Positions 3,612 through 48,300 of a stretch of DNA of 64,000 bases are shown in pieces (position 1 is the first letter of the stretch; each line of letters begins with the position of its first letter). The stretch comes from Struthio camelus (taxonomy: Eukaryota > Chordata > Aves > Struthioniformes > Struthionidae): positions 5,073,906 through 5,137,905 of the forward strand of contig NC_090968.1 in NCBI RefSeq assembly GCF_040807025.1. Direction: 5' to 3'. A program made the translations under genes and the position numbers. The notes beneath the pieces are model-generated. The model saw nothing but the letters and a program-made list of their open reading frames with translations, made no database searches and was not told the origin of the DNA.

Positions 3612-6600
3612 GTAAGAGTCTAAAAAGGATGGGGTAGCAAATTGTGGTATCATCGGGGCAAAGGATGAGGAACCTGATTGTGAATTCCTGCCTAATTGCG
3701 TATCCCGAGGTGGGAACAGAGTGTTGACTCTGCTTATACCAGAGCGCAAGCAAAGCACAGCTAAGAGCAGACCAAAGTAAAAAGTTTTCTGAAAAACCTG
3801 TTTGTCTGTAGCCTTTTGCCAGAATGTCCTGCGATTCTTTTTAGTAGAGTCCATTTTTAAACCAGATTGTCCTCTTTGAATTTTAGGATCAACTTCTCAT
3901 GTTTGCTTCCTGCTTCCTGGCACTTCAGCATCTCTCCTGTGGGATGCCCGCGTATTATCAATACCACTTTGCGACAGATCATTGTTATTGGAATACTTGC
4001 TGCTGCTGTCTCTTTGCTTTACTATTCTCTGGTTGTCATCCGGAATAAGTATGGACGTGCATACAGGGATAAAAGATTCCACAGGTGAGAGTTAAAAACA
4101 CTGTGGTGGAGAGCAGTGATGTGGTTTACGTTCTGTAGATTCATGTTATGTAGTTGGGACAAGAATTTGGTGTACAAGACAAAGCACTGACAGGAAGCAT
4201 GTATAAAATAACTGAATGGAGAGGGAAAAAAAAAGCATGAATAAAATCCCATGCTTTTTTTCCTGTAGTTTTCTTTATCTGAGTTACTTTCAATTTATTA
4301 ATAATTCAGCTTTACAGTTTCTTATTTAGTGTTTCCATAAGGTAATAAAAACTTGGGGCAAGAGTGTTGTGTAAGAAATTATTCTGTAAGTGACTTTCAG
4401 GATTTATTTGGAGAATTTGATTCTTCTGAGCAGCACTTCCCCTTCCCCCCACCTCAGCAGTGTACAATGCTGAAAACTGTTGTATGATTCCTCTGATAGA
4501 AGCTGTTGTGGTGTGTTGAATCTAATGTTAAGAAAAACTTTCATACAGAGCTTGAGTTGTCATGTAGTAACGTCAAGTTTTCTTGTAGGTATCTTGCCCG
4601 AGTAACTGATACTGAAGCTACCGATACAAACAATCCCAATCTGAACTATGGAATCGTTGTGGACTGTGGCAGCAGTGGCTCTAGAATTTTTGTGTATTGT
4701 TGGCCAAGACACAACGGTAACCCACACGATCTGCTGGACATCAAACAGATGAGGGACAAAAACAGAAAACCAGTGGTTATGAAAATTAAACCAGGTACTG
4801 GAAAGAAATTAATTTTTAGAGTTGCTTTTCTATCTAGTTGCCTATGCTAACCTTGCTTTTTCAAAGCCTATATTTAAAAAGTCTGGGCAAAGGAAGCTTG
4901 AATGTTTTCAGTATGGCATTCCCCAGGTTTCTTTGCGTTTGGTTTGCACGATGCTTTGTTCAGCTTTAGAACTTGAAACATGACACTGACAAGCAGGAGG
5001 AAGAGGGTTTCTTTGTATACTAAGACAGTTGCCAGTTCAGTTGCCTGTTAACTTAGTTTTGTTTAGTAGATAAATAATCAGCTTCCTAAAAAAAGAATGA
5101 AACTAACACTAATTCATCCTCTAAACATTAAATAAAAGCCTGTATTACTGTTATAGATAATTATCTATTTGTACAATTGGTAAAATTAAAAAATAGCTTT
5201 TTTATTTCTGTAGTTGATTTCCTGGAATTGGCTTTGGGTTCTTTGTTTCTGTTCTGTGCATTGCTTATCAAGATTTTGCAGATAGGAACTACTTGAGGCC
5301 TGAGTTGCTTCACTTTCATATTTACCTGTTTCACTAGGCATTTCAGAGTTTGCTAGCTCTCCTGAGAAGGTCAGTGATTACATTTCTCCACTTCTGAGCT
5401 TTGCTGCTGAACACGTACCCCCTGCAAAACACAAAGAGACTCCTCTTTATATTCTGTGTACTGCAGGAATGAGGATTCTGCCAGAAAGGTTATTGGCCAT
5501 CTCTTATTTTTAGTAGATAGAGGTAGCGAAATCTACTAGTAGATCTAGTAGATTTTAGTAGATCATTATTCATTTAGAATAATGATCCTGGTGTCTCTGA
5601 CTATTTTTAACTATTCAAAAATGTTATTTTGCAGCCAGCAGAAGGCAATACTTGAGGATCTGCTCACTGATATCCCTGTGCATTTTGATTTTCTGTTCTC
5701 GGACTCTCATGCAGAGGTTATTTCAGGGAAACAGGAAGGTAGGTTAATGTTGGAAACATCCTTTAAAACGTCTATCCTTTTCCTGCTACAATTTGGTTAA
5801 TTTTTTTATTGCTTTTTAAAATTCTAATTCAGTTGAGAGATCTATTCCTCAATAGCAGTAGATGGTCCTGTGTGCAGATCATCATCTGCTGTAATCTTTT
5901 AACTTGTCTAAAAGTTTTCTAATTAGCAGTGAACATAACACATCCCAATTTTGCAGGGATTTTACTCCATTTTCTCCGACTTCAGGGAGGTAAGGGTCAG
6001 GATAGGATACAAGATCTCTCTCAGCAAAAGAAATGCTGCGGACAAATGGTTTCTAGAGGGAACAATGTTTTGATATAATCAGGACTGTGTTAACATTTTT
6101 TTTTAACTATATAAAATAGCAGTGGTACATGATAACAAGTCAAATGCAAAATATCCCTCTCTGTTTTTAAGATGATATTTATCAGGCATTCCTGAAATGT
6201 CCAAATTTTTTTTTTCCCCTTGTGTACATAGGAGTTTATGCATGGATTGGCATCAACTTTGTTCTTGGAAGGTTTGAACATACAGATGATGGTAAGTATC
6301 TAATTGTGAACTGGGTTTTAGGAAGGACTTCAGATACGTTACTCTTGTGCTTTCAGTGTCGGTGGTATGTTTTCGGATAGATCCGTTAGTGAACAGTGCG
6401 TATGTGAATGCTGGTATTGACTTAATTTGTATGTGAAATTTCAATGATCTGCGTTGCTACAGAAATTGAAGAAAGTTCTGACTGTAGCGCTGCTGTAGGC
6501 TGCTTTAGTTGTACTTCTCAAAGGCTTTTCATTGTTTCCTCCAGAGGATGAAGCGGTTGTGGAGGTACATGTCCCAGGTAGTGAAAACAAGGAGGCCATC

Positions 6601-25100: not shown

Positions 25101-27700
25101 TTCAGTTGAAGCAGCAGGTCTCGGCAGAGACCACAGCCTGGATTTGGGAGCTGTAAGAAACCTTCAGCTGGCTGAAACATGCTGATCATGGACCCAGGTG
25201 TTTGTGCCTGCAACCATTGCTCTGTCCATGCAGCATTGGAGAGCATATTTCTAAAGGCTGGATCTCATAGATCTAATCAAATACTGATGCAGAGGGCTTT
25301 GGTTAGGTAACTTCAATAAACGCTGATTTTTCTGTAATAGACCTGTAGCTATCTTTTTAAAAAAACAAAGTGCCTTTTCTTTCCTGCTCTCCTAACTTGC
25401 ATGTTTGTCCATTGGAGTTTCTCTTGAATCTAATTTCTTTAGCAAGTAATGGCAAGCGATATGCATTCCTGGGCTACGTGCATCCTCTTTGTTGGCTCTT
25501 CAAAGAGCTATCTGTTGTAGGAGAATACATTTATCCCCCTCTCAGCTGGCAAACGCTCCAAACTTTTTTCCTTTCCGTGTAGCACATGTTTCGGTAAGTC
25601 AGTAGCTTTTTAGGGGGAAAAAAATTGTGCATGTGTGTATGTATATATGTATGCATGTTTGAATGTGAAGCAGAGGCCAGAAGGTTCTTAAAATATTATT
25701 AATCTTGTTTCTCTCTTGAGAGAGATCTTGTGAGATGACAGTGTCTGTTCACATAGTCTGTAGCAATCTGGTAATCTGTGTTAAACTGGCTACTAATTGT
25801 CAGCAGGGGTCTGCCCACTGCCCCGGGTGCCCTCTGGGGTCTAAGGGGGCGCGCTTTAGTTTGCAGAGAAGACGGGTAAGGAATATTGCAGTGGTCAGTT
25901 CAGGCTCAGCTGATGGGCTGGTGGCTAGTGAAGTTGTGGCAGCTCTAGAGCTTCAGATCGTGCAAGTTTTGCCTCTGCTCCCAGAGGGCATGGTGGGACT
26001 TGGTTCTCTCCTTTCCTGCAGCATCCTGACAAACTGGAAGAGGCAAGCTATGCTTGCTAGCTTCCCTGATGTAAGTGACTGTATTAGCTACCAGTTGCCC
26101 TCGGCTGGTTTGTAATAATTCGAGGTCTGCTTTCTTAAGGTAGCTCTGAGCTTCCTGATAGAAGGTTTTTGTTCCTCATCAGCAACAGCTGTCTGAAGTG
26201 ACTTACAAAAGTCCTGTGCTAATAGGAGACCTCCACGGAGCCCGAGCGAAAGGGCTGAGCAAATGGAAACAACCCGATGGCACTGGCTAATATGTGTTGG
26301 TTCTTTTCATCTCAACCGTAAAGAGGAATTCGGAGAAAATGTGTGTTCCTCTGTGTGATGACTAGCTGATTATATTGCTTTCCTTCTGGCTTGCAGAGTC
26401 TCTGGATTTGTAATACATCAGAGTGTTATCCTGCAATGATCTCTGCTGTCCTACTTGTGCCGGGCTCTGCTCTGACTCCTATACAACGTTTTCGCAAACA
26501 AGCCTCAGTTTATGGTTTCGATGCCCCCAGCTGCATTTCAGCTTCCTTCAGTGGCTTGAAGTTTACAGCTTCTGAATGAACCATTCTTAATGTATTTTTT
26601 TTAACCATGCTGTTACTCTAGATTGCGGACGTGAACACTGATTCTGATCTGGGAGGATCCTGTTACAGCTAATTCCCGAGCGTGTGGCTGTTTGTGAATC
26701 GGCATGCGAAGCAGTTACGTGTTTTATGTGAGAGCTGTACGTGGAAATCGTCCAAGCTTCAGCAGTTAGTTTTTCACCTGCCTATGGGAAAGGCCTGGAA
26801 CAATTTTCCTATTGCTTCATGTGAAGCTAAGCTTAGATATATCTGTATGACATTGGTTTATGAAACCTAATGCTTTGTCCACCATCTCTTGTAACACGGA
26901 TTAACTTTTCCTGGAAGGGAAATGCTTGCAGGATGACTGCTTTGTGTATTCCCTGCAGGTACCTACTTCTTGTGGGGCAACGGATGCATCCTAAAGCAAA
27001 CAGAAAATTGCTGATGCACCAGGACACGTGTTCTGTGCTGCTTCAGGTTGCTTCAGCTTCCACCTGTAGCATGCTCTTTGTATTGCCTGTCCTTTGCTTC
27101 CCCTCTCCTAAAAACGGCTGTGCCACTGACACCAGAAAGGGCTCGTGTGACCCATCTAGTGTGGCAGAATGTCAGCTCTCCCCTGCGGAGGCCATCCCAT
27201 GGTCAGAGGACTTTGTGCCCTGGGTTTGTTGTTATCTAGCCCCCTCTGCTCCAAGACAGGTTCAGTTATGCTTAAGTCGTTCTGAGCGATGTTTGGGGAT
27301 CTCTAGGAAGAGCGTTAACAGCGCTGGTGACTTTCTCGTCTCCCCAGTCAGTGCTTCCCTGCTGTGCTGTGGGGTGTGGAGCTGCATGAGGAGCATACAG
27401 TCTCCTCCAGAGCCGCTTAACCGCTGGGATAAGTTCTGATCTCAGGTTGTTCCTCTAGCTAATGGGGCTCTGCTGTAAATCTGGGGTTTTGGCCATTGTT
27501 TGGTATATCTGGCCCCACCAGTGACCTTTGTGTCTTATTATTGACAGATCCATAAACACTATACAGCTGACGGAGCTTCAGAGATGTTACTGAAGGGGCT
27601 GGTGTGAATGAGCGGGCTCTAATTCCCGGCCTGCATTGGGATTATGGTCGGCGGGGGTTTATCTACGGAAGTGTTGGCCTTGGTGCCTGATGTAGAGATG
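13134..27700. other. Spacer between ENTPD4 and LOXL2, no protein gene seen
   Basis: About 14.5 kb without any exon I can recognise. There are many short chance frames on both strands. The longest is 189 codons (26870-27439, plus strand) and has no known domain. Small features are a C-run at 23585-23596, a doubled GCTTATTAAT unit near 23608-23627, an imperfect tandem 18-mer at 18485-18521, and homopolymer T or A tracts. The LOXL2 noncoding first exon or its distal regulatory elements may lie here, but I cannot place them. Confidence 0.55.
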
Positions 27701-27779
27701 AGCCTCTTGAACGACAGGAGAAACGTATATCTGAGCTTTGGCTCTTAATGAAGCAAATGGTAATGTTTCCGTTAACTTT

Positions 27780-27940
27780 CATAGCACTGGAGAGCGGCCC
27801 AGCGTGGAAGCGTCCCTGTGTCGGCCGAAGCACCGCTCGCGCAGCAGCGGGGAAACGCTGTCGGTGCCGCGGCCGCCGCTTGCTGCGGGGTGTGCGAGCG
27901 TGCCTGAGGAATGCGCTTTGGGCAGCGGGGCGTGGAATTG
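27780..27940. promoter_or_regulatory. GC/CpG-rich patch upstream of LOXL2, candidate promoter
   Basis: A roughly 160-base block rich in CpG and GCCGC-type words (for example GCCGCGGCCGCCG around 27868) stands out against the plain spacer on either side. LOXL2 in other vertebrates begins with a noncoding exon far upstream of the ATG exon, and this is the only CpG cluster between ENTPD4 and the first LOXL2 coding exon. I see neither a TATA box nor a convincing splice donor next to it, so its role as the LOXL2 start is only a possibility. Confidence 0.3.
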
Positions 27941-30900
27941 AAAATGTAGATCGGACAACTTGTGCGATACCGTTTCGAGTGGCTGAATAACAACTGTTTG
28001 GTACTCCTGGCTGAGACCCAGGCGTGCCAATAGTGGTCTGAGCGCTAATTGTTTCTTCCTTCTGATGGAGGCCCCATGTCATGCAAGCCAAGCGGAGCAT
28101 TGCTGGATCCACAGGCACAAAGGACTCAAATCAACCGCTCCAGACTTTCCTTTTGTTGCCCGGATAAGGAGGGGAACAGGAAAGCTGGTGTTTCACGTCT
28201 TGTCTGAGTTGATCTATTGTTTGGAGGATTTGGTAAAATTAAAAAAGGGATCCTTGCTGGTAGGAGTAAATTTTTGATATGGGGAGGTGCATGCCATATT
28301 AGCTTCAGCTAGTGAATTCTCTGCAGAAATAAAAGCTCAATATTATTTTGAAATTAAGCTGTTGCACGTTTCCCTGTGAGCCTGTGTGCCCGTCTGTTCC
28401 TTTCAGGGCTTAAGACTGGAGTTGTGAAAAGGGCTGAGTCAGCAGCTTGCAGGCGTATGCCTTAAATTACAAGGTAATGCAAAGATGGAGAGTAATCTTA
28501 TGGCCTGAGGAAGCACAGGACCGAGAGCCAGAAGACCTTCAGCATTTTCCTGGCTTCTCCATTTAACTTATTGAATAAGGTTTTTAATATTCTGTCCTGG
28601 ATTCTCTTGAATGGAGAGACCGTAATATGCACTTCTAGGCTTATGTCATTAATAACTCTGGAGGCCGTTAAAGAAAGGATAGAAGAGGAAGAATGAGCCC
28701 TACAATAAAGGGAATAGCCAACATAAATGAAATGTCTTGCAAACCTAAGCCTAGATTTGTTTTTCAGAGAGTTCAGCATGCGCAATTCCCTTTGAGACTT
28801 GGGGAGAAAAAAACGTCCAGATCTCAAGCGTAGCCACACAGATGAGTGTGTTTTTTCTAAATGTTTTTCATAATAAATGTTGTTGTGGCTTATAACGATG
28901 CCATCATAAATCTGTGTGTGCGCTTGACGCCTATCTGATGCAGACTGTCCATGTTTGCTTCTTTAAATGTTCCTAAGTGGATCTGTCACCGAGTCCTCAG
29001 TGTTTCTGTTCCGGAGCAGTGACGATTTTCTCTGATACTGGTGCAGTACAACTAGCATCTTGTAGCCAAGGAGAGAGATTGCAGGAGGAGCTGGGAGAGA
29101 ATAAATCCAAAACTCGCGTGGCTATTCAGTGCTATGGAGTGAAAGAAGGTGCGTGAAACTTTGTGGGATGCCAGCTGCCTGTGTTCAAATTCCACTGGCT
29201 TCTGTGACATGGTGAATCAGTCTGAATAGTTTCTCTTAAGTACCTTGATAAACAAGACCTCTGGGCAGGTAAGGCTTTATTTCTGGGGTACTGCAGACAC
29301 TGTGAAAGCTTTGCCTCCCGATGGTTGAATGTGTGACTGTTCTGAAGCGGATGGTAATACGATCTGAAGGAAAAGCAGGCTGTAGTTGCTCGTACGCACT
29401 GCGGTGTTGCTTCGCGAAGCGTATGGGATTGCTGCTGCTCTGCTCTTTTGGAGATTCCTTTGAGACTCACTTCTGCAGGTGGGATAGGGCCAGAGTGGGG
29501 ACTCGAGGATGTTTTTCCAGTCCCTTTTCTGGAGGCCCTTTAGTAGCCTTCAGTGATCCTTGAAGGATCCTGACAAACATAGATGAGCCAGGATGCTATA
29601 TCACCTAACCGTGAAACCTATGTGCCCCGAGCCGCTCTCTGCGGCAGAGGTCCAGGATAGTGTTCATACAAGCTTGTTAAAATGCTGTTTTGCTAGTCCA
29701 ACTCCCCTCTGCTGAGCAAGGGGCTCTCAGGGAACCTTATCTTCCCTCACCAGGTTTTCATTAAGTTCTATGGTAAATGATGTTTTTTCTTAATCTCACT
29801 CGACTCCCAAAGTCTCTAAGCTTTCGGGGAACAAAAGCAAAGCAGCCTGTGGTTGCAATTCGGAGTATGGGACTCCTGGGTCTCCTGACCTGGCAAGGCC
29901 AGCAGGGCTGTGCCAAGAGGGCAAACTGGACCTACTGTATTTGCACAAAGACCTAAGTTAGTACCTGCCTGACTAAGCTTGGTATCTAATTAAAGTAACC
30001 TGGAAGACTTTTGTCACCCCCATCCTACAGCTGCTTGCGCGCCATGAGGTTTCCCATTGCTGAGCCTTTTTTAAAAAGGCTCTGGCATCTTGCAGTGGTC
30101 TGTCTGCTTTATTAATTAACACTTCAGGGAGCACCGTGCTCAGCTGGTAACTATTACATCCTGCCTCTGAACGGTTTCCCCAGATTCTTGTGTCTTTTGG
30201 CTGAAGTCCTTCAGTAAAACGACCCAAGAGCTTTGGTCCGTATGGAAAGCAGTCCTGGAGAGTGAGTAACGCCGTTTTTTAGCTACCTACTCCTTGGCCT
30301 CTGATCATGAAAGACCCCTCTTAACCCAAGAGCAGAGTTACCACTGGTCATTGTTTGCCTTGGCACAAGAAGGATAAGTGAAACGTGCTGACCTGCTGGT
30401 TGCAGACTATTTGTTGGTCCTTTCCTTCTGCAAAGTATTCCTGTTTAATTATTATTAAGCTTTCTGGAGTATTATAAACAAAACTGTAACCTAGAGGGAA
30501 ATTTGTCCTATTCAGTTAATTACGATGACGTGCCATCTCCTCTCTCGGGAGCTACAGGTCTTCCAAGACTTGACTTTAAGGCCACTCACCTCAGATTATC
30601 TGGCTTGGCCTCCTGAAATGTCCATCACCAGGTTGCCTGCTACACATTTGCTCAGGCTTATTAAATCCAAAAGCCGATTTCTGCAGTAGCAAGAGACAAA
30701 CAACTAAATAAAATGAAGTAGGTCAAAACAGGTGTTTAAAGAAGATCAGAACTGAAAACCAGATTTTCTGTTAGTCCTCTGTTGGGTTCACGTTTCTATT
30801 CTCTGATGTCTCCCTGCACAGAGGAGTCGTAGTCTTAATGCCTGTCGTTCCTGCCTCTGTTCGGGAGAGGCTGGACTCTCTCCGTCTTTTTTTTCTCCAT

Positions 30901-39300: not shown

Positions 39301-42300
39301 CATTCACCAAAGGAAACATCATAGTTTTGTAAGCTTCTGGGTAGCCCACAGCTTGTCCAACTGATGTTTTCTAATTGGAATGAGATCAGGGATTGAGTGG
39401 CCTGGAATTTTCTACTGAATAGCAATGCTGTGGTTAGGTTTCTCCACAAGTTCCACTGGCTTCAGCTATTAAACGGATGGAGCTAAACAAGTACAAATCT
39501 CCCACTGAGATTTCCAGTGGGAGATATTTCAGTTTATCCTTACACTGCTTTTGAAACCAGACTTTACTCAAAGTAGACCTGGTTTAAGATGATGTGCAGA
39601 GCTTAGATACCAAATTGCCCCTTTTATTGCTACATTCCCACAGTAATTAGTAACAACTGCAATGCTTCCCAAACGGATCTGGTTGTTTCCAAACTGATGT
39701 TTTTGCAGCCAGCAGACTAACAGGAGCAAGAGCAGATTTTGGCGCACGTTAACGTGTCAGGGTGTAAACTGCAGCGGGGCAGCGAGTAGCAGGCTCGTTC
39801 TGCCCTCCTGTTGCAGGCATTTAGGGGAAACGGGCTTTGTGCAGCCTCGTTAATGCACTGCTAAGCGTGTGCCGTTGCACTTAGATTTCTCCCGAATAGA
39901 GAGCTGTCTGTCTTCCTACTGCCGAGGACAGATAGACAATCTTAAATTCATCATTTCCAAAGTGTCTTAAAGACCTTTTAGCGCTAAGTTCTCTGGGCCT
40001 GCCAAGTGCCGCTAAGATTTAATGCTGAAAGCCAGCAGGTACAAGAAAACATCTGACTTCATTTCGCCAGGGCTCCAAATCAGAGGGACTGTGCAAATTG
40101 ACATTCACTCAGATCTGGCCTTGCTTCCTAAAATCTGACAGGCGAAGAGTTCACACTCTTTTAAAAGCAACATGATATCCCTCGAGCAGAGTTTATTTTT
40201 ATTGGACAATGCACATACCTCTATTTCCCAGTTTGGAAATGCTGTAGATAAGTAGTATAGGATGAAATTTTCCATCACCATAAACCGCTTGGCTTTATAT
40301 ATATGCTCAGACGGATCTTTTCCCGTCACAGCTCATAGTTTGAGGGTTACGTCATATCTCTTCCTGTCCCTGAGCCTTTCCATTCCCTGCTCCGATGGGA
40401 AGGGGCAGTCAGTGCCTTACCCTTGCTACTGTGAAAGAAGTCGCCAGTTGAAGGTCAGAGTGAAACGTTACAGCCCAGGGTGAGTGATGCAATATCGGTG
40501 ATGAGAAGATTGAAGACAGCCAGGCAGGAGGAGGTTAACTCTCCAAACAGGACTGAGGTTAGGGCAGGTCTGAAATCCATCAGTCCCTTGCTAAAGGGCA
40601 AAGAAAATCCCATCGTTTTTGCTTGGTGTTTTCTGTAGCCACTGCAGCTTTTAGCCTTGGGCCTTGTTCAAAGGATTATTTCTTGGAGGGTGATGAATGC
40701 ACATGGCAGGACAGCCCTTTCATGGGCTGCTGGCTGGGCAGGATTAGCCCGATACCCTCTTTGCTCAGTGGCTGTGTAAACACCAAAAGTTGCTCACCTC
40801 TTCCAAACTAGGAAAGCGGTGTTTGCTCAGTTCATATGTGGGGTGTAATGACGTGGAGGCACTTTACAGAAGGCCCCCCACCCTTTGAAGAGTGTAGATT
40901 AAATACGTAGACAGTGTCTCATTAATGGAGAGAACAGGGCTGGTGGCTTGGCCTTGTCTGCTAAAACCTGTTCGCCTCTGGGAGCATTAAGAAGGGAAAG
41001 GCAGGTACGTTTCCTGCTGGTATCGCGTCCCCTCTCCCCTCCTGCAGACTCCAGCTCTATGAGAGTAAGGCACGCACCCCGAAAGGGTTAAGAAGCAGGA
41101 GCTGCACGTGAAGGTGCTGCAAGTGTGTGGCTGAGTGTGCCTTAACCGAGGATCTGCATGCAAACGTAAAGGCTGCCCAGAGCCATGGGGATGGTTGGGA
41201 ACACAAGGAAGCTGATGTCCAATCCGCTTGCTGTGATCCTTCACTGAGGCATCTGTGCAGCTAGTGCCGGTACTATGTGGCCAAAATCACTGTTAGACTA
41301 ACGCTATTGTTCAACTCATTGTGTCTTCTCTGGGTTTGATTTAGCTTGCGTTCCTTCTTTTTTTGGCTAAAGCATAGTTTGGAGTAAAACGTCCCGGTTT
41401 TGTATACTGTTATCCACATTAGCAGCCCGATGTATCGCTTAGGTCTAACCATGATTGCAGAGCACCTTACTCGCGTTGTTTGTAGCGGTAACTTTGTGCA
41501 CAGCGTGGCAGACGCACTGTGAGTAGTGTCTTAGGCCTGTGAAGGTCAGTGAGGGTGAAAGAAAAAACTTAATTGTGTTGGTTTTAAGGGCTCAGAGCAC
41601 ATCTGGGAACATGGAAGCTCTTTGCTTGCTGACTCTCATTGAGTTTGAGAGAGACAGGCAGTAAGTCCTAAAAATATATATGCTGAATTGCAGTGATTCA
41701 AGCTTTGTAAAACATAGCAAGTAGAATCTGCTCCTTGAGCCAAAGGCCTCTGAGCACGTTATAGACGCCCAGGGGGCCTCATGCTGTGCCTTTGCCCCAA
41801 GTAAACACTATAGCTGTTTTGCAGATGGGGCAAGGAAGCCAGCAAGGTGAAGGGCCAGGAGATAAGTAGCTCACCTGAAAGCCCAGCTAAATGGAGGAAA
41901 AGAACTGGGAAGACAAACTGCTCATCTTGACTCTCTCCCGAACTGCAGTCCTCCTTCCACTGATATGTCACAGCAAAAGGTACAAGGAGCAGGTTAAAAT
42001 CTCTGCCGGAGAAGTACGCTGTGACTGTTGGTTGTTTCTTGCAGTTCGCAAGTGTCTGAAGGTGGCTGGGTAGGTAGCGTGGACCTGCCTTAAGATTCCT
42101 TTATATGGTGCCAGAGCCTGCAGTGTAAATGTGTGCACAGTCTTGAATGTTTTCCTAAGTCTTTGCCGGATACCAGCAGCTTTGAAATCAGAATGATTTA
42201 ATGTGTGCTCGCAAAACCGTGAATGGGGAATGCAGACCCTGCTTTTCAAACAGTATATGTAGCCACTTTACGTTGTCCAAACACAGCACAAGCCCACCTG

Positions 42301-45300
42301 TGACTGCCTTACTGGGTTGACCTGCAATGTTAAGGCCATAGTAACTAGCTCCTACTTTTAATTTATTTCTCTAATAAATGCATGATAGGTATGTTTTTTA
42401 ACTTATCCTCCAGAAACATCCTTACCAAAATATTTGTTGTCCACCCTCTTCCTCTGTGCACGCACACACCCTTCAAATAGGACATGCTCTAAATATATCA
42501 AATGGCCGCAGCCGTTACACGTTCACAAATAGATTTGGTACCTGAGACTAGACTGTGGGCAGCCTGAGGCCTGGTTAAACATACTGGGCTGGGCTGCTAT
42601 TTCTGTCCTCCTCTTCCCTTCTGGGCATGTGTGAAGGCTAGGAATCTCACTTCAAAGCCCAGTGGCCGAAAGGGTCTGGTTATGCCAGGTTAAAGGAGGG
42701 TCCAACTGTGGTGTCCAGGTTTCTTTACCAGTGGGCAAGAGCACCGTGAAATCCTGCTCAGGATCTTTCGGATAAGTTGAGCGCAGCGGATAAGGTGGTG
42801 TGAAACGCTTCTGTAGGCTGAGCTGCTCCTACCTGGAAGGTGTAAGGAGGGAAGGAGGGCAGGGACGTTGTCACGGTTTGACAGGCCTGTGCCACTGGTG
42901 CTATGGCACGTGCCTACGGGGTGGGCGCACCAACTGGCAGGCGTATTAATGGGGATACTGAAGTGAACAGGCAACCGCAACCTAGGCAGATTTGGGCTGG
43001 CCGGATAGGTGGTTATGCAGTGATGAATGGATTTACAAACACTACTGGTAAAATAGGCAGTTTAATAACAATCGCAACAGCAGCTATAACCTGTGAATGG
43101 TGCAGCTATTATACGTATATATGCATCACTGTTTACAAGGGAGGGAATAGATGGATCATGCGTAAAGACATGCAATAAGAAGTCTTCTGGAAATAAATAA
43201 AAACATGAAACATATATAAAAAGGTGAGGACTGCAATCTGTGGAACGAAGCCACAGGTGATGGTGCACCTTCTCTCCTAGAAAGGCAGCAGGGCGGCTGA
43301 GCTGTCCCCAGCACGGGCAGTGGTCTCCGCCCAGCCACCCGCTGCTCCTCCTCCCTCGGCTGCCGCTCCGCCGCTGTGCCCACGCTCGCCGCGGCGGCTC
43401 TTTTATAGAGGGCCGCCGGCACGCTGTGCGATGACGTGGCCGGTGCCGATTGGTCGCCTTTCGAGCCTTCATTTGCATCGACTGGCCGGTCGGACCAAAT
43501 CGAAGCCTGAAGGCGGCAGGTCCTCGCAGCAGGCTCGTCCCACGTGCTCTCCTTCGGCCAACCAGGGCGGAGCCGCCGCGGCGGGGGGCGGGGCCGGGCG
43601 CGGGTCGCGTGTCTGCTGGCGCGCCGCCCGGAGCTGCAGCGCGGGTCGTCGCCACCCGAGACTTCACCCCTGTGCCCTGATGCTCCTGTTCTCAGCGGAG
43701 CAGGTTTACTTTGCTGTTCGTTACGACGGCAGCGTTGTAACCTCTCCTCGGTGTCAACGCGTGCTGCTTCCCTCTAAGCCCACGCGTGACCCGAGTGCTG
43801 ATGCTTCGTGTGTTCGGAGGGGATCTGGGCATCCGCTCCAGGCGGGTGTGAATTAAGCCGCTGCTGCGGTAAGCCGCCACGCTCCTGTATCGCTGTAACT
43901 TTAAAGCGTGGGGGGGGGGGGAGGCTGTTCCTGCTTGTTTCAGTGGCGCCTTTGCCATGGTTTGTGGGGTGACAAGGCGCGGGGTTTGCAGGGCAGGTCT
44001 GGGGGTTGTCAGCTAGCAGAAGATACGGGCTGTGGAGCTGGCAGGGCCAAGAAAGCGCCAAGGCTGGCGTTGGTTTGCTCCTCTTCCTCGTGGGACAGAG
44101 TGTGTCTCCTTGTGCTGACTGTATCCCATGCCTGAGTAGCTGACAGCCATTACACTGGGTGCTATTAACCATTTCTCCGTTACACAAGATAACGAACTAC
44201 TTAACTAAGCCTGAGGAGGAGTGTGATCTTGTTGCGTTTTGCAACGCAGAGGGCGGTAATAAATTTGGCTGGCTTACAGCAGCTGATCCAGGGGATCTTA
44301 GAGATGGCTCAGAAGAAAGGGAGTGGAGGCCTCCATGCTTTGCTCAGCGTGAAAACCTCTGACCATGATGCTCACAGACCAGAGCAACAGGCTGGCTTGC
44401 CACCCGCGCCAAAGCGTCGCTGGGGCTTAATGCTCCGGCCTTCTCTTGCTTGCTTCTATTCATTCAATTCATTTCTTGTCTGAGTTGCAGTCTTAAGGTG
44501 CTGGTGTTTGGGAAGCCAAAAAATCTCGGATCACTGTTGTAAGTGAAAAATGATGCTATAAATCGTTTTCTGCACCTCTGGGGCAGTGGGATGGGTCAGG
44601 CACAGGGAAGGAGAGAGCTGGGGTTGACAAGGAAGGCACAACAGATAGGCAGGATGGCACACATGAGAGATTTGCTTGTGGAGATGGGAAAAACTCTGTA
44701 GAATAGAGCTGCATTTAACAGGGGAGAGGGATCTCTGTGTCTGAGGGTTTAGTGAGGGTAAGCAAGTTCATGTGATGGTGGATCCAAGCCCCTGCTGTTG
44801 GATGGAAGCCTGTTCAGAGACTGTCGTTTTCCTCAAAAAAACACTGTTTGTAAAGGTGTGCGATTCTGCATAAATTCCTGCTCATGTGATCTCTTAACCT
44901 AATCGTGCAGTTTTGGTAGTTAACAGAGAATCTTAGAGCAGGAGAGCAACGAATATGGACTAACCAGAGCTATACTTAGCACGCAGCCTCCTTGCGTTTG
45001 TTAAATCAAGCGTTTGTGGTAAGACCTGAACTCCTGAATGCCTAAATAGTCTGTCTTGCATCATTGCCTGGAAGTGAGGTGCCTGCCAGAGCCAGTGCTG
45101 AATACCTCCGCTCTCTTGCTTTGCAATCACTGATGGTGATGTTAAAAAACAAAACAACCCACAGAAGCATGGCTTTGTTCCGCTTCCCTTTCCGCCTGCG
45201 TTCGAGGAGTTTCTCTGGCAGTAGGACAAACGCCTATAGCCGCAGCTGCGCAGACCTGCCTGTCCTATGCAGTTTTCTAGCTGGTGTCTGAATGCCGCCA

Positions 45301-48300
45301 CTGGGTGCGTGGGCGCGGGTTTTAAGGGGTTGTTGAGATACCCTCCTGAAAAGCCCCTCTGAAACCCCCGCTGCTGTGGCTCGCTTTCTGCCAGAGTCGG
45401 TGATTCAGCCCCAGAAGTGGCGTCCGCGGTCCACGAGGCAGCGGTGAGGTTTCTAGGAACAGGATCTCCTCTCTGTTTTGATGACCGCGTGTCCGCGAGG
45501 CTGTCTCAAGAAGAAAGGGTGTCTCTTAGCTTGGGCAGCGGAGGAGGACGCGAGCGTACCGTCATGGGCATAATTGTTCTGCCAATACGAAACAGATGGC
45601 CAAAGGTGAAAGAAAACGTTACGAAAGTTGTGTCGGTTTTTGCAATCAGATCCGAAGCCGTGGGGAAGCGTTTGGTTCAGAGAGTGGAAACAAAAGCAGC
45701 TGAGGCTCCTGTGAAAGTGCTTGGAGCCAGGAATCCTTTTGTGAAAGCTCAAAAACAACCCCCTTTCTTGCTGCTGTCTCCAGGCAGGCCCCAGCTTTCT
45801 GAGGCTGAGGTTCATTGGTTTCGTAACACAACTCAGCGTGTTGGCTTGCGGTGGGCTTTTGTGTCCGGCTCTCAAGAGCAGCAGCAAGAAGATGCAATGT
45901 GGGTCTCTGACGTAAGGAGGCTCTTGGTGGAGAAAGGAGCAGTAGGGGGGAAAACATGGCCCAACCCAGAATAGTTTCACCCTTCCCCCCCCCCCATTTT
46001 TAATAGTAATTTTTATTGTAGTAATGCTGGAAGTCCCAACCAAAATCACGTCTTTGTTGTGTTAGGCCTTAGGCAAACGCAGATGTGTAGCCCTTGCTGT
46101 AGAGGCTTGATAATTCAGATTAGGCGAGATGGGCTTAGCGTTTTTTTTCCCCTTTACAGAAGGGGTGAGGAAGAGAGAGCGAGAGGCCTGAGCTAGCCGG
46201 GAGGAGGTGGGGATGTGAGTTTGCACGGCTGAAATCCCACCGGAGATCTGTGGCAACCCTGTTGCTGAACAGGATCTCGTCAGTCTCGGACCAAAAAGCT
46301 ATTTTAGCTGTGGTCTGACTTATACATCATAGATGGCTCCGGGGAGAAGCAAGTTGATGTGGAAGCCAGAGCTGTGAACGTATCTACAGACCTGCTGCAT
46401 TTCCCCCCTCTCTCCCTCCCTCCCATACCCAGCTCATTTCTTTATCTTTCTTGTGGTTTCTTCACACCTTTCAAGGCTCAGGAGGCTTAGCTCAAGAAGG
46501 AGAAAAAATTCTTAGGCTTTCTTGTTGCTTGCATGCTAGCTCCCTTAATGGAGCTAATCTATGCCAGAATAGTAGATGTCTCCGATGAAAGCGAAGCTGC
46601 AGCTGGAGGAATGAGGCCAGTATTTCTGATGGAGCAGACCCGCTTACCCCAGCGCGCGGGGTCAGCAATGCAAGACACGCAGTCCTTTCGGAGCAAGTAG
46701 CGCTCTGGAGAGCAGAGTATAAAGGCAAGAGCTGATTCAGCCTCAAATATGTGGGTGGGATTGTTTCATAAGCAAAGGAGAGGTTGGAGATCCAGGTCTG
46801 AATTAAGCTTGTAGCTGAATTCTAAGATTTGGAGTTTTAACAACAACAACAACAAAAAAAAAGGCTGGCACCTACGTCTCCACAGCTGTTGGCCTAAATA
46901 GGTGGAAATTGCACAAGGCTCGCTCAGAAGGGGAGGACCGGCATGCGTGAGCCATAAGAGTTAACTCTTTCTGGGTTTGGTCTCTCGTGCTGTGCGGGTA
47001 GAAATTCCCAGCAGCACTTTTCCCATGGGCCAGATCATCGCGGGGAGGGAGCCGAGTCCTGGGTTTGTGCGTGGTGCTCTCGCCCCCTTCCTGCATTGCG
47101 TTCTTCGGCCTCGGACTGTGCGCGCCAGGTCCCACTGGCTTTGGGGGTTGGGCCTCTGTTTCCAAATCTACCTAACGTGGGTTGCGGTCAGCCCAGTTTT
47201 ACTTCCTAGAGGTAACGTCTCTCTCTGCTGAATGACTATATGGGCTCCCGAAGCAGATATTGTTGAAGGCTCTACCTTCTGGTTGATATCTGGAGTGGGA
47301 GCTTGGCAGATGTGTGTTCAGCTTCTGCTTCGGCCGCAGAATCTGCTTTGTGATTTCACCAGCTGTAAACTCTTACCAGCGGAGCATCCTTTTTTGCTGC
47401 CTGTTTGTATCCCCCAGCTGGCGTACAGCCATCAGGACAAGATCCTGGGGGTGGGAAGCAGCTTACAATCCTGCTCTTGCTGGGGGATTTACCAGACCCA
47501 GATTTACCTTGTAGCTGCTCTCTACAGTTATAAGATGAGACTAAGTTAAAGTCTTTCGGACGTGAGATTTTCCTGTTGACGTGACAGCTTGTTGCAGGTA
47601 TTTTTCTCCGCGTGTACATAAATTACGGGGAGGGCAATTTAAACAAAACAAACAAAAGGTCTGCTTCAGCTATTTAATGTTGTTTACTTCTGATTTTTAT
47701 GTGGAGTCTGTTTTCATCATTACCCAGCTGGTCTACGCGTCGGTGTTGGAAGGTGAAACATGCTGCCTGTATTCGCATGATTGAATACTCCCAGTGTGAC
47801 AAAAACTCTGCAGTGAAAGGAAATGATTCAAGTCTGTGAAGAGTGATTGGGAGAAAGCTTTTAGCGATCCATTCTCATTGGGAAACCTTTATTATACTTA
47901 GTTTGACCGCTTTGTTCTTTAATCTTGCAATATAAAGCTGAGATCTACAGTGCTTTAAATTCTTCTCTCAGAGGTTTTGCTGTTTGTTCAGGCTCTGCAA
48001 ACCCTTGAGTTGCTATATCAGTAGCTCTGCTCTAGACCTCCTCTCTGCGAGCGGAATGGGGAGTGGCTGTGCATTGGTTTTGCTCTCAGACAGGTCCTGA
48101 AAACGTCATTGTGTGCTGGTCTGCTATAGCTATCTGAAGATTGAAATACCCTCAAGAGAATGAAACGATAACTTATTTCTTGCTAGGTTGCTTCCCCCCC
48201 CCCGCCCACCCCCTGGCAAATACAGACAAAAAGGCAGGACACAAGAGTTGGATTCATGCGGAGTCCCAAGTCGGAGCAGGATTTCTGTGTGTGTATCAGC

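Follow-up and report, generated by a model that had tools for sequence, protein, structure and literature searches.

A retroviral antisense promoter in an intron of the presumed LOXL2 gene of the ostrich: part of an old solo LTR

The CpG island at 43290-43680 of the window (the whole 64,000-nucleotide stretch of Struthio camelus DNA analysed here) is very probably the U3/R half of an ancient class III (ERVL-like) solo LTR, reversed within an intron of the gene that we take to be LOXL2, its motifs being those of the viral promoter. The element is an LTR, it lies antisense to its host gene, and its motifs were inherited with it (Table 1). A retroviral origin accounts for the motifs, for their order and spacing and for the lack of a gene behind them. 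Judged by its sequence, the element originated as a retroviral promoter, lies antisense and is of an ordinary kind.

The first-pass annotation had described a complete-looking antisense promoter and read it as that of an unannotated lncRNA. A Pol II promoter of this appearance is present; a host origin is not upheld, the whole having come with the retroviral LTR. Minus-strand TATAAAA, CCAAT and the octamer ATGCAAAT (43471-43478) were all found where they had been reported, along with the E-box CACGTG (43541-43546) and GGGGGCGGGG (43584-43593) on the same strand; the CRE half-site TGACGT (43432-43437) reads on the plus strand. The island has a GC content of 0.73 and a CpG observed/expected ratio (o/e) of 0.99, and the remainder of the host intron 0.47 and 0.41. 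Its description as isolated is only roughly right, because a weaker CpG-rich stretch at 45151-45610 (o/e 0.79) shares the intron; a further CpG-rich stretch of the window is at 27671-28070 (o/e 1.01). The island motifs are real and not a product of chance. The window has a single instance of octamer, CCAAT and TATA in this order, and 100 shuffles gave none; the 1.45-Gb genome has 65, versus 14 of the reversed pattern. Eight of the 65 are, by position, members of the LTR family (C1:152756115, C1:214302699, two on C14, one each on C24 and C27, the latter being the window, and two on C40); a ninth, C2:25205989, reads like the family by its pattern match alone.

With the island as query, 12 places were found in its own genome, itself included, which have two blocks in common with the window, 43412-43579 and 42869-43222. 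One LTR copy as query gave at least 51 matches, a lower bound since 40 candidates were scored; by our own count, 37 rows at at least 26 places are long or paired and 14 rows are short. The downstream block of the window alone returned 26 matches, namely itself, 21 other LTR places and four of 63-65 bp. Nine near-full copies measure 1.05-1.16 kb, start with TG in eight cases (the start of L013 is altered) and end with CA in all nine. A 5-bp flanking duplication was recognised by eye in eight of them, with all five bases agreeing in L010, L014 and L017, four of five in L009, L012, L013, L015 and L016, and no agreement in L011. The 3' end of the family is also that of the window copy, and the 5' end of the window copy does not align. 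A host gene family with a common promoter was dropped as a candidate because LTR ends and flanking duplications were seen. Avian ERVL/ERV3 solo LTRs, as described in PMC6523648, are like this family in their TG...CA-type ends, 5-bp duplication and mostly solo state; the family here differs in its low copy number.

Table 1. Parts of the LTR in the window, all read on the minus strand
Feature	Position	Strand	Remarks
Solo LTR, antisense to presumed LOXL2	42869..43659	-	3' end sharp at 42869; 5' end probably about 43659
U3 promoter stretch	43391..43593	-	aligned to several copies; CpG o/e 1.08
E-box block (CACGTG with flanks)	43540..43549	-	invariant in 6/6 CpG-rich copies
Octamer block (ATGCAAAT with flanks)	43466..43479	-	invariant in 6/6 CpG-rich copies
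CCAAT box	43449..43453	-	25 bases from octamer in 10/10 copies keeping both
TATA box	43401..43407	-	transcription start expected near 43377
ATTAAA, probable LTR polyadenylation signal	43061..43066	-	ATTAAA somewhere in 18/23 U5 rows
LTR 3' part (R/U5)	42869..43222	-	68-81% identity to 21 other LTR places

Homology of the window to other LTR copies covers 42869-43222 and 43391-43593, so that U3 is recognisable up to 43593; roughly 300 bp of R have been lost from the window copy or have diverged too far to be recognised. When the first 100 bases of nine copies were compared with the window, eight were not above the 95% shuffle level, and the ninth (L012) aligned above it solely at a place beyond the expected 5' end. 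Octamer-to-end distances of 185 (L009) and 183 (L014) put the 5' end of the window copy near 43661-43663. Its candidate flanking duplication, taken from bases starting at 43660, matches at four of five positions, a result reached by chance at 33 of 400 positions (8%); this incomplete match and the unalignable outer 5' end count against the best explanation at this locus.

In the motif survey across copies, 22 of 24 loci gave a match (none in L024 or L038; 75 bp only in L031). Ten copies have both octamer and CCAAT, at one fixed spacing, and 10 have both octamer and TATA, 69-88 bases apart; L002, L011, L018 and L021 are CpG-rich and without TATA. From the shared order and near-fixed spacing it follows that the promoter was inherited from the retrovirus, and the comparison with histone genes falls. 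Octamer, CCAAT and TATA are the boxes of histone-type promoters, and the window LTR has all three in common with them, but it is retroviral and comes with neither a histone frame (Pfam) nor a 3' stem-loop match (Rfam). The copies L011, L018/L022 and L021 (C1: 23.7, 24.4 and 27.2 Mb) have lost the same CCAAT and TATA and are 97% alike over 474-475 bp between the pairs L004/L006 and L005/L006. Might they have been copied as dead elements rather than newly inserted?

That no histone or other protein frame follows the promoter was borne out. ATG frames over the first 1500 nt downstream on the minus strand reach 40 aa at most. Two long stop-to-stop minus frames (205 and 209 aa) span the island; neither these nor two minus-strand frames below it gave a Pfam match at 0.1, an earlier Pfam scan having covered one plus-strand frame of 36-44 kb and four exon frames. 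Rfam at the gathering threshold gave no known structured RNA and no histone 3' stem-loop, ARAGORN under bacterial settings no tRNA gene, and the search at 36-52 kb no tandem repeats. A histone or other coding gene behind the promoter was rejected, as Rfam, ATG frames and Pfam all lent it no support. The best minus-strand splice donors, in an uncontrolled scoring with a donor-site matrix, are CAG/GTGAGC at 41875 and CAG/GTAGGA at 42833, both outside the LTR. The 15.5-kb intron is consistent with the frames, which are exon-like up to about 36.3 kb and resume near 51.85 kb, with plus-strand SRCR frames on the far side. Two SRCR stretches match LOXL2 (5ze3) in the PDB, where the match to M130 scores higher; the gene name is partly presumptive. 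A GDA1_CD39 frame lies at 4.5 kb of the window. LOXL2 and ENTPD4 are presumptive names for neighbours of this kind.

Evidence about the retroviral class comes from a locus on C40 (L039, 6345000-6352500), in which LTR stretches at 1050-1416 and 5882-6199 enclose pieces matching RVT_1, RNase_H and rve; another frame, the fourth examined, gave no match. Among solved structures, a set that contains no ERVL reference protein, the best match of the integrase piece is to foamy-virus integrase (1.9e-18); the top eight rows, five named PFV and three just integrase, extend down to 3.4e-16, and the next row stands at 6.7e-11. The reverse transcriptase piece is nearest murine-leukaemia-type enzymes, with HIV close behind, which lends the class assignment no support. 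A 5-bp duplication is taken as a mark of ERV3/ERVL in bird repeat curation (PMC6523648), and it was found in this family. From the duplication and the integrase the family may be called class III, ERVL-like; the reverse transcriptase does not support this.

C40 (70.4 Mb) and C41 have nearly identical stretches in common, displaced throughout by about 19.3-19.5 Mb, among them the LTR pair L019/L020. We infer that they may be Z and W sharing an extensive region, which would fit a ratite; a shared region of 59.3 Mb is reported for Z and W of the emu (PMC7601716). The LTR pair that encloses the pol pieces maps to the putative W, and C41 has no counterpart to it among the matches listed; its position may be compared with the W chromosome as a reported refuge for ERVs (PMC8310711).

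The 23 U5 rows form a star-like tree, with two of 20 inner branches well supported, and the end branch of the window copy is 0.19 changes per site long versus a median of 0.1. Avian substitution rates are 1-2 per site per thousand million years, and with them this branch would place the window insertion roughly tens of millions of years ago.

CpG content is retained within the U3 core of the window copy, at an o/e of 1.09 versus 0.48 in the upstream flank, 0.29 in the downstream flank and 0.61 in its own U5. No other CpG-rich stretch lies within 10 kb downstream of L025, L036 or L034; on the upstream side, such stretches come that close to two of the three. Conservation was judged on paralogous LTR copies within this one genome, of which sixteen were kept for comparisons of octamer intactness and invariant runs. 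Dropped were L018 and L021 (near copies of L011), L036 (a tract in common with L025), L031, L027 (same provirus as L023) and L020 (near-identical to L019), and L024, L026, L028, L029 and L030, found through U5 with U3 missing or unmatched, stand outside the U3 sets. A cut at GC of at least 0.55 and o/e of at least 0.75, chosen after the table had been inspected and with one copy per linked group, gives six CpG-rich copies (L001, L002, L003, L025, L034 and L011). At a mean identity of 73% these have an invariant block of 14 bases over the octamer and one of 10 over the E-box, runs that 0 of 20000 column permutations reach; the 10 CpG-poor copies show no comparable run (longest 5, P 0.29). Because L002 had been found mainly through U3, the test was repeated with U5-found copies (n=14, L002 and L023 being dropped as not found by U5 alone), and five rich copies set beside nine poor ones again gave runs of 14 and 10. 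Of the 2002 possible five-copy subsets, counting the rich one itself, the longest run is reached in 61 and the sum in nine. The poor-subset control is not clean, because permutation values were low in one subset of five poor copies as well (0.03 for the longest run, 0.003 for the sum). On addition of L017, just under the cut (GC 0.54, o/e 0.77), the runs drop to 5 and 4. The octamer is intact in all six CpG-rich copies versus four of the 10 others, at a nominal one-sided value of 0.026 with many 8-mers examined. The E-box contains CpG, so its tie to CpG-richness is partly circular; the octamer contains none. As a sign of retained function the invariant blocks would be suggestive but fragile, depending on a post hoc cut and lost with one borderline copy.

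If the promoter still works, minus-strand transcription would begin near 43377, and the RNA would either stop just past the ATTAAA of the LTR, at about 330 nt, or continue into the intron. An antisense transcript from the window LTR is possible on these grounds; an antisense lncRNA controlling LOXL2 is speculation. Octamers are bound by POU-type and E-boxes by USF/MYC-type factors, which may help to keep U3 unmethylated in the germline. We tentatively propose, as something rather unlikely at present, that a subset of LTRs including the LOXL2 copy have escaped methylation from the time they inserted and persist as CpG islands, purifying selection having preserved the octamer and E-box of five or more independent copies, so that one retroviral burst would have left dispersed POU/E-box promoters that also attract biased gene conversion. 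The LTR may instead be dead, its motifs fossil, its GC and CpG owed to GC-biased gene conversion and small-chromosome context, and no transcript made; the chances of this fall a little short of even. CpG-rich copies can be without TATA, which favours it, and crossovers or GC-favouring conversion at CpG islands would raise the GC of U3: a study of the collared flycatcher reports crossovers clustered at promoters and CpG islands and a bias towards G and C in non-crossovers (PMC4878770). Two LTRs on C14, 428 kb apart (L025, L043 9549-9920, and L036, L045 9518-9889), are 99.2% identical over 372 bp of U3 beside 182 bp at 83%, as expected from conversion, and the tract looks like a recent conversion event. 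Two points weigh on the other side: the o/e is still about 1 after correction for GC, and the CpG-free octamer is intact more often in the CpG-rich copies, with the figures given above.

If the LTR acted on LOXL2 not by way of antisense RNA but as an enhancer or as an alternative promoter in the sense direction, the Ens-1 solo LTRs would be a precedent: they are found close to chicken genes, in either orientation, and a role as alternative promoters or in regulation at a distance was suggested for them (PMC3362752). With the TATA box directed away from the direction of LOXL2, such action is improbable. The earlier reading, a non-retroviral host promoter of an unannotated antisense gene, can point to the complete motif set. 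It is hardly tenable and as to origin refuted, given that the family has long matches at no fewer than 26 places, ends of LTR type and flanking duplications, and that one LTR pair encloses retroviral pieces.

The solo LTR origin has parallels in known systems. The chicken Ens-1 elements are likewise bird LTRs near or in genes, mostly with a TATA-like box, and were judged active by intact factor sites (PMC3362752). Those sites are of Nanog and Gata type and were tested in ES cells, whereas the window LTR carries octamer and E-box. The MER21C LTR that starts GPR1-AS resembles it as an old LTR and possible antisense first exon, but there a transcript and an imprinting effect are reported (PMC12129452). 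The term LOXL2-AS1 occurs in the literature on LOXL2 antisense RNA, as a listed term of one paper. No title among those listed concerns a bird LTR of such make-up, bird ERV titles being present, which leaves its absence unproven.

An apparent orphan promoter thus becomes a retroviral insertion, and the family offers a small, countable set of loci for asking whether old bird LTR promoters stay open through factors that still bind them. If the CpG-rich subset is truly under selection, it would show directly how two sites, the same in each copy, preserved many LTRs of a single burst.
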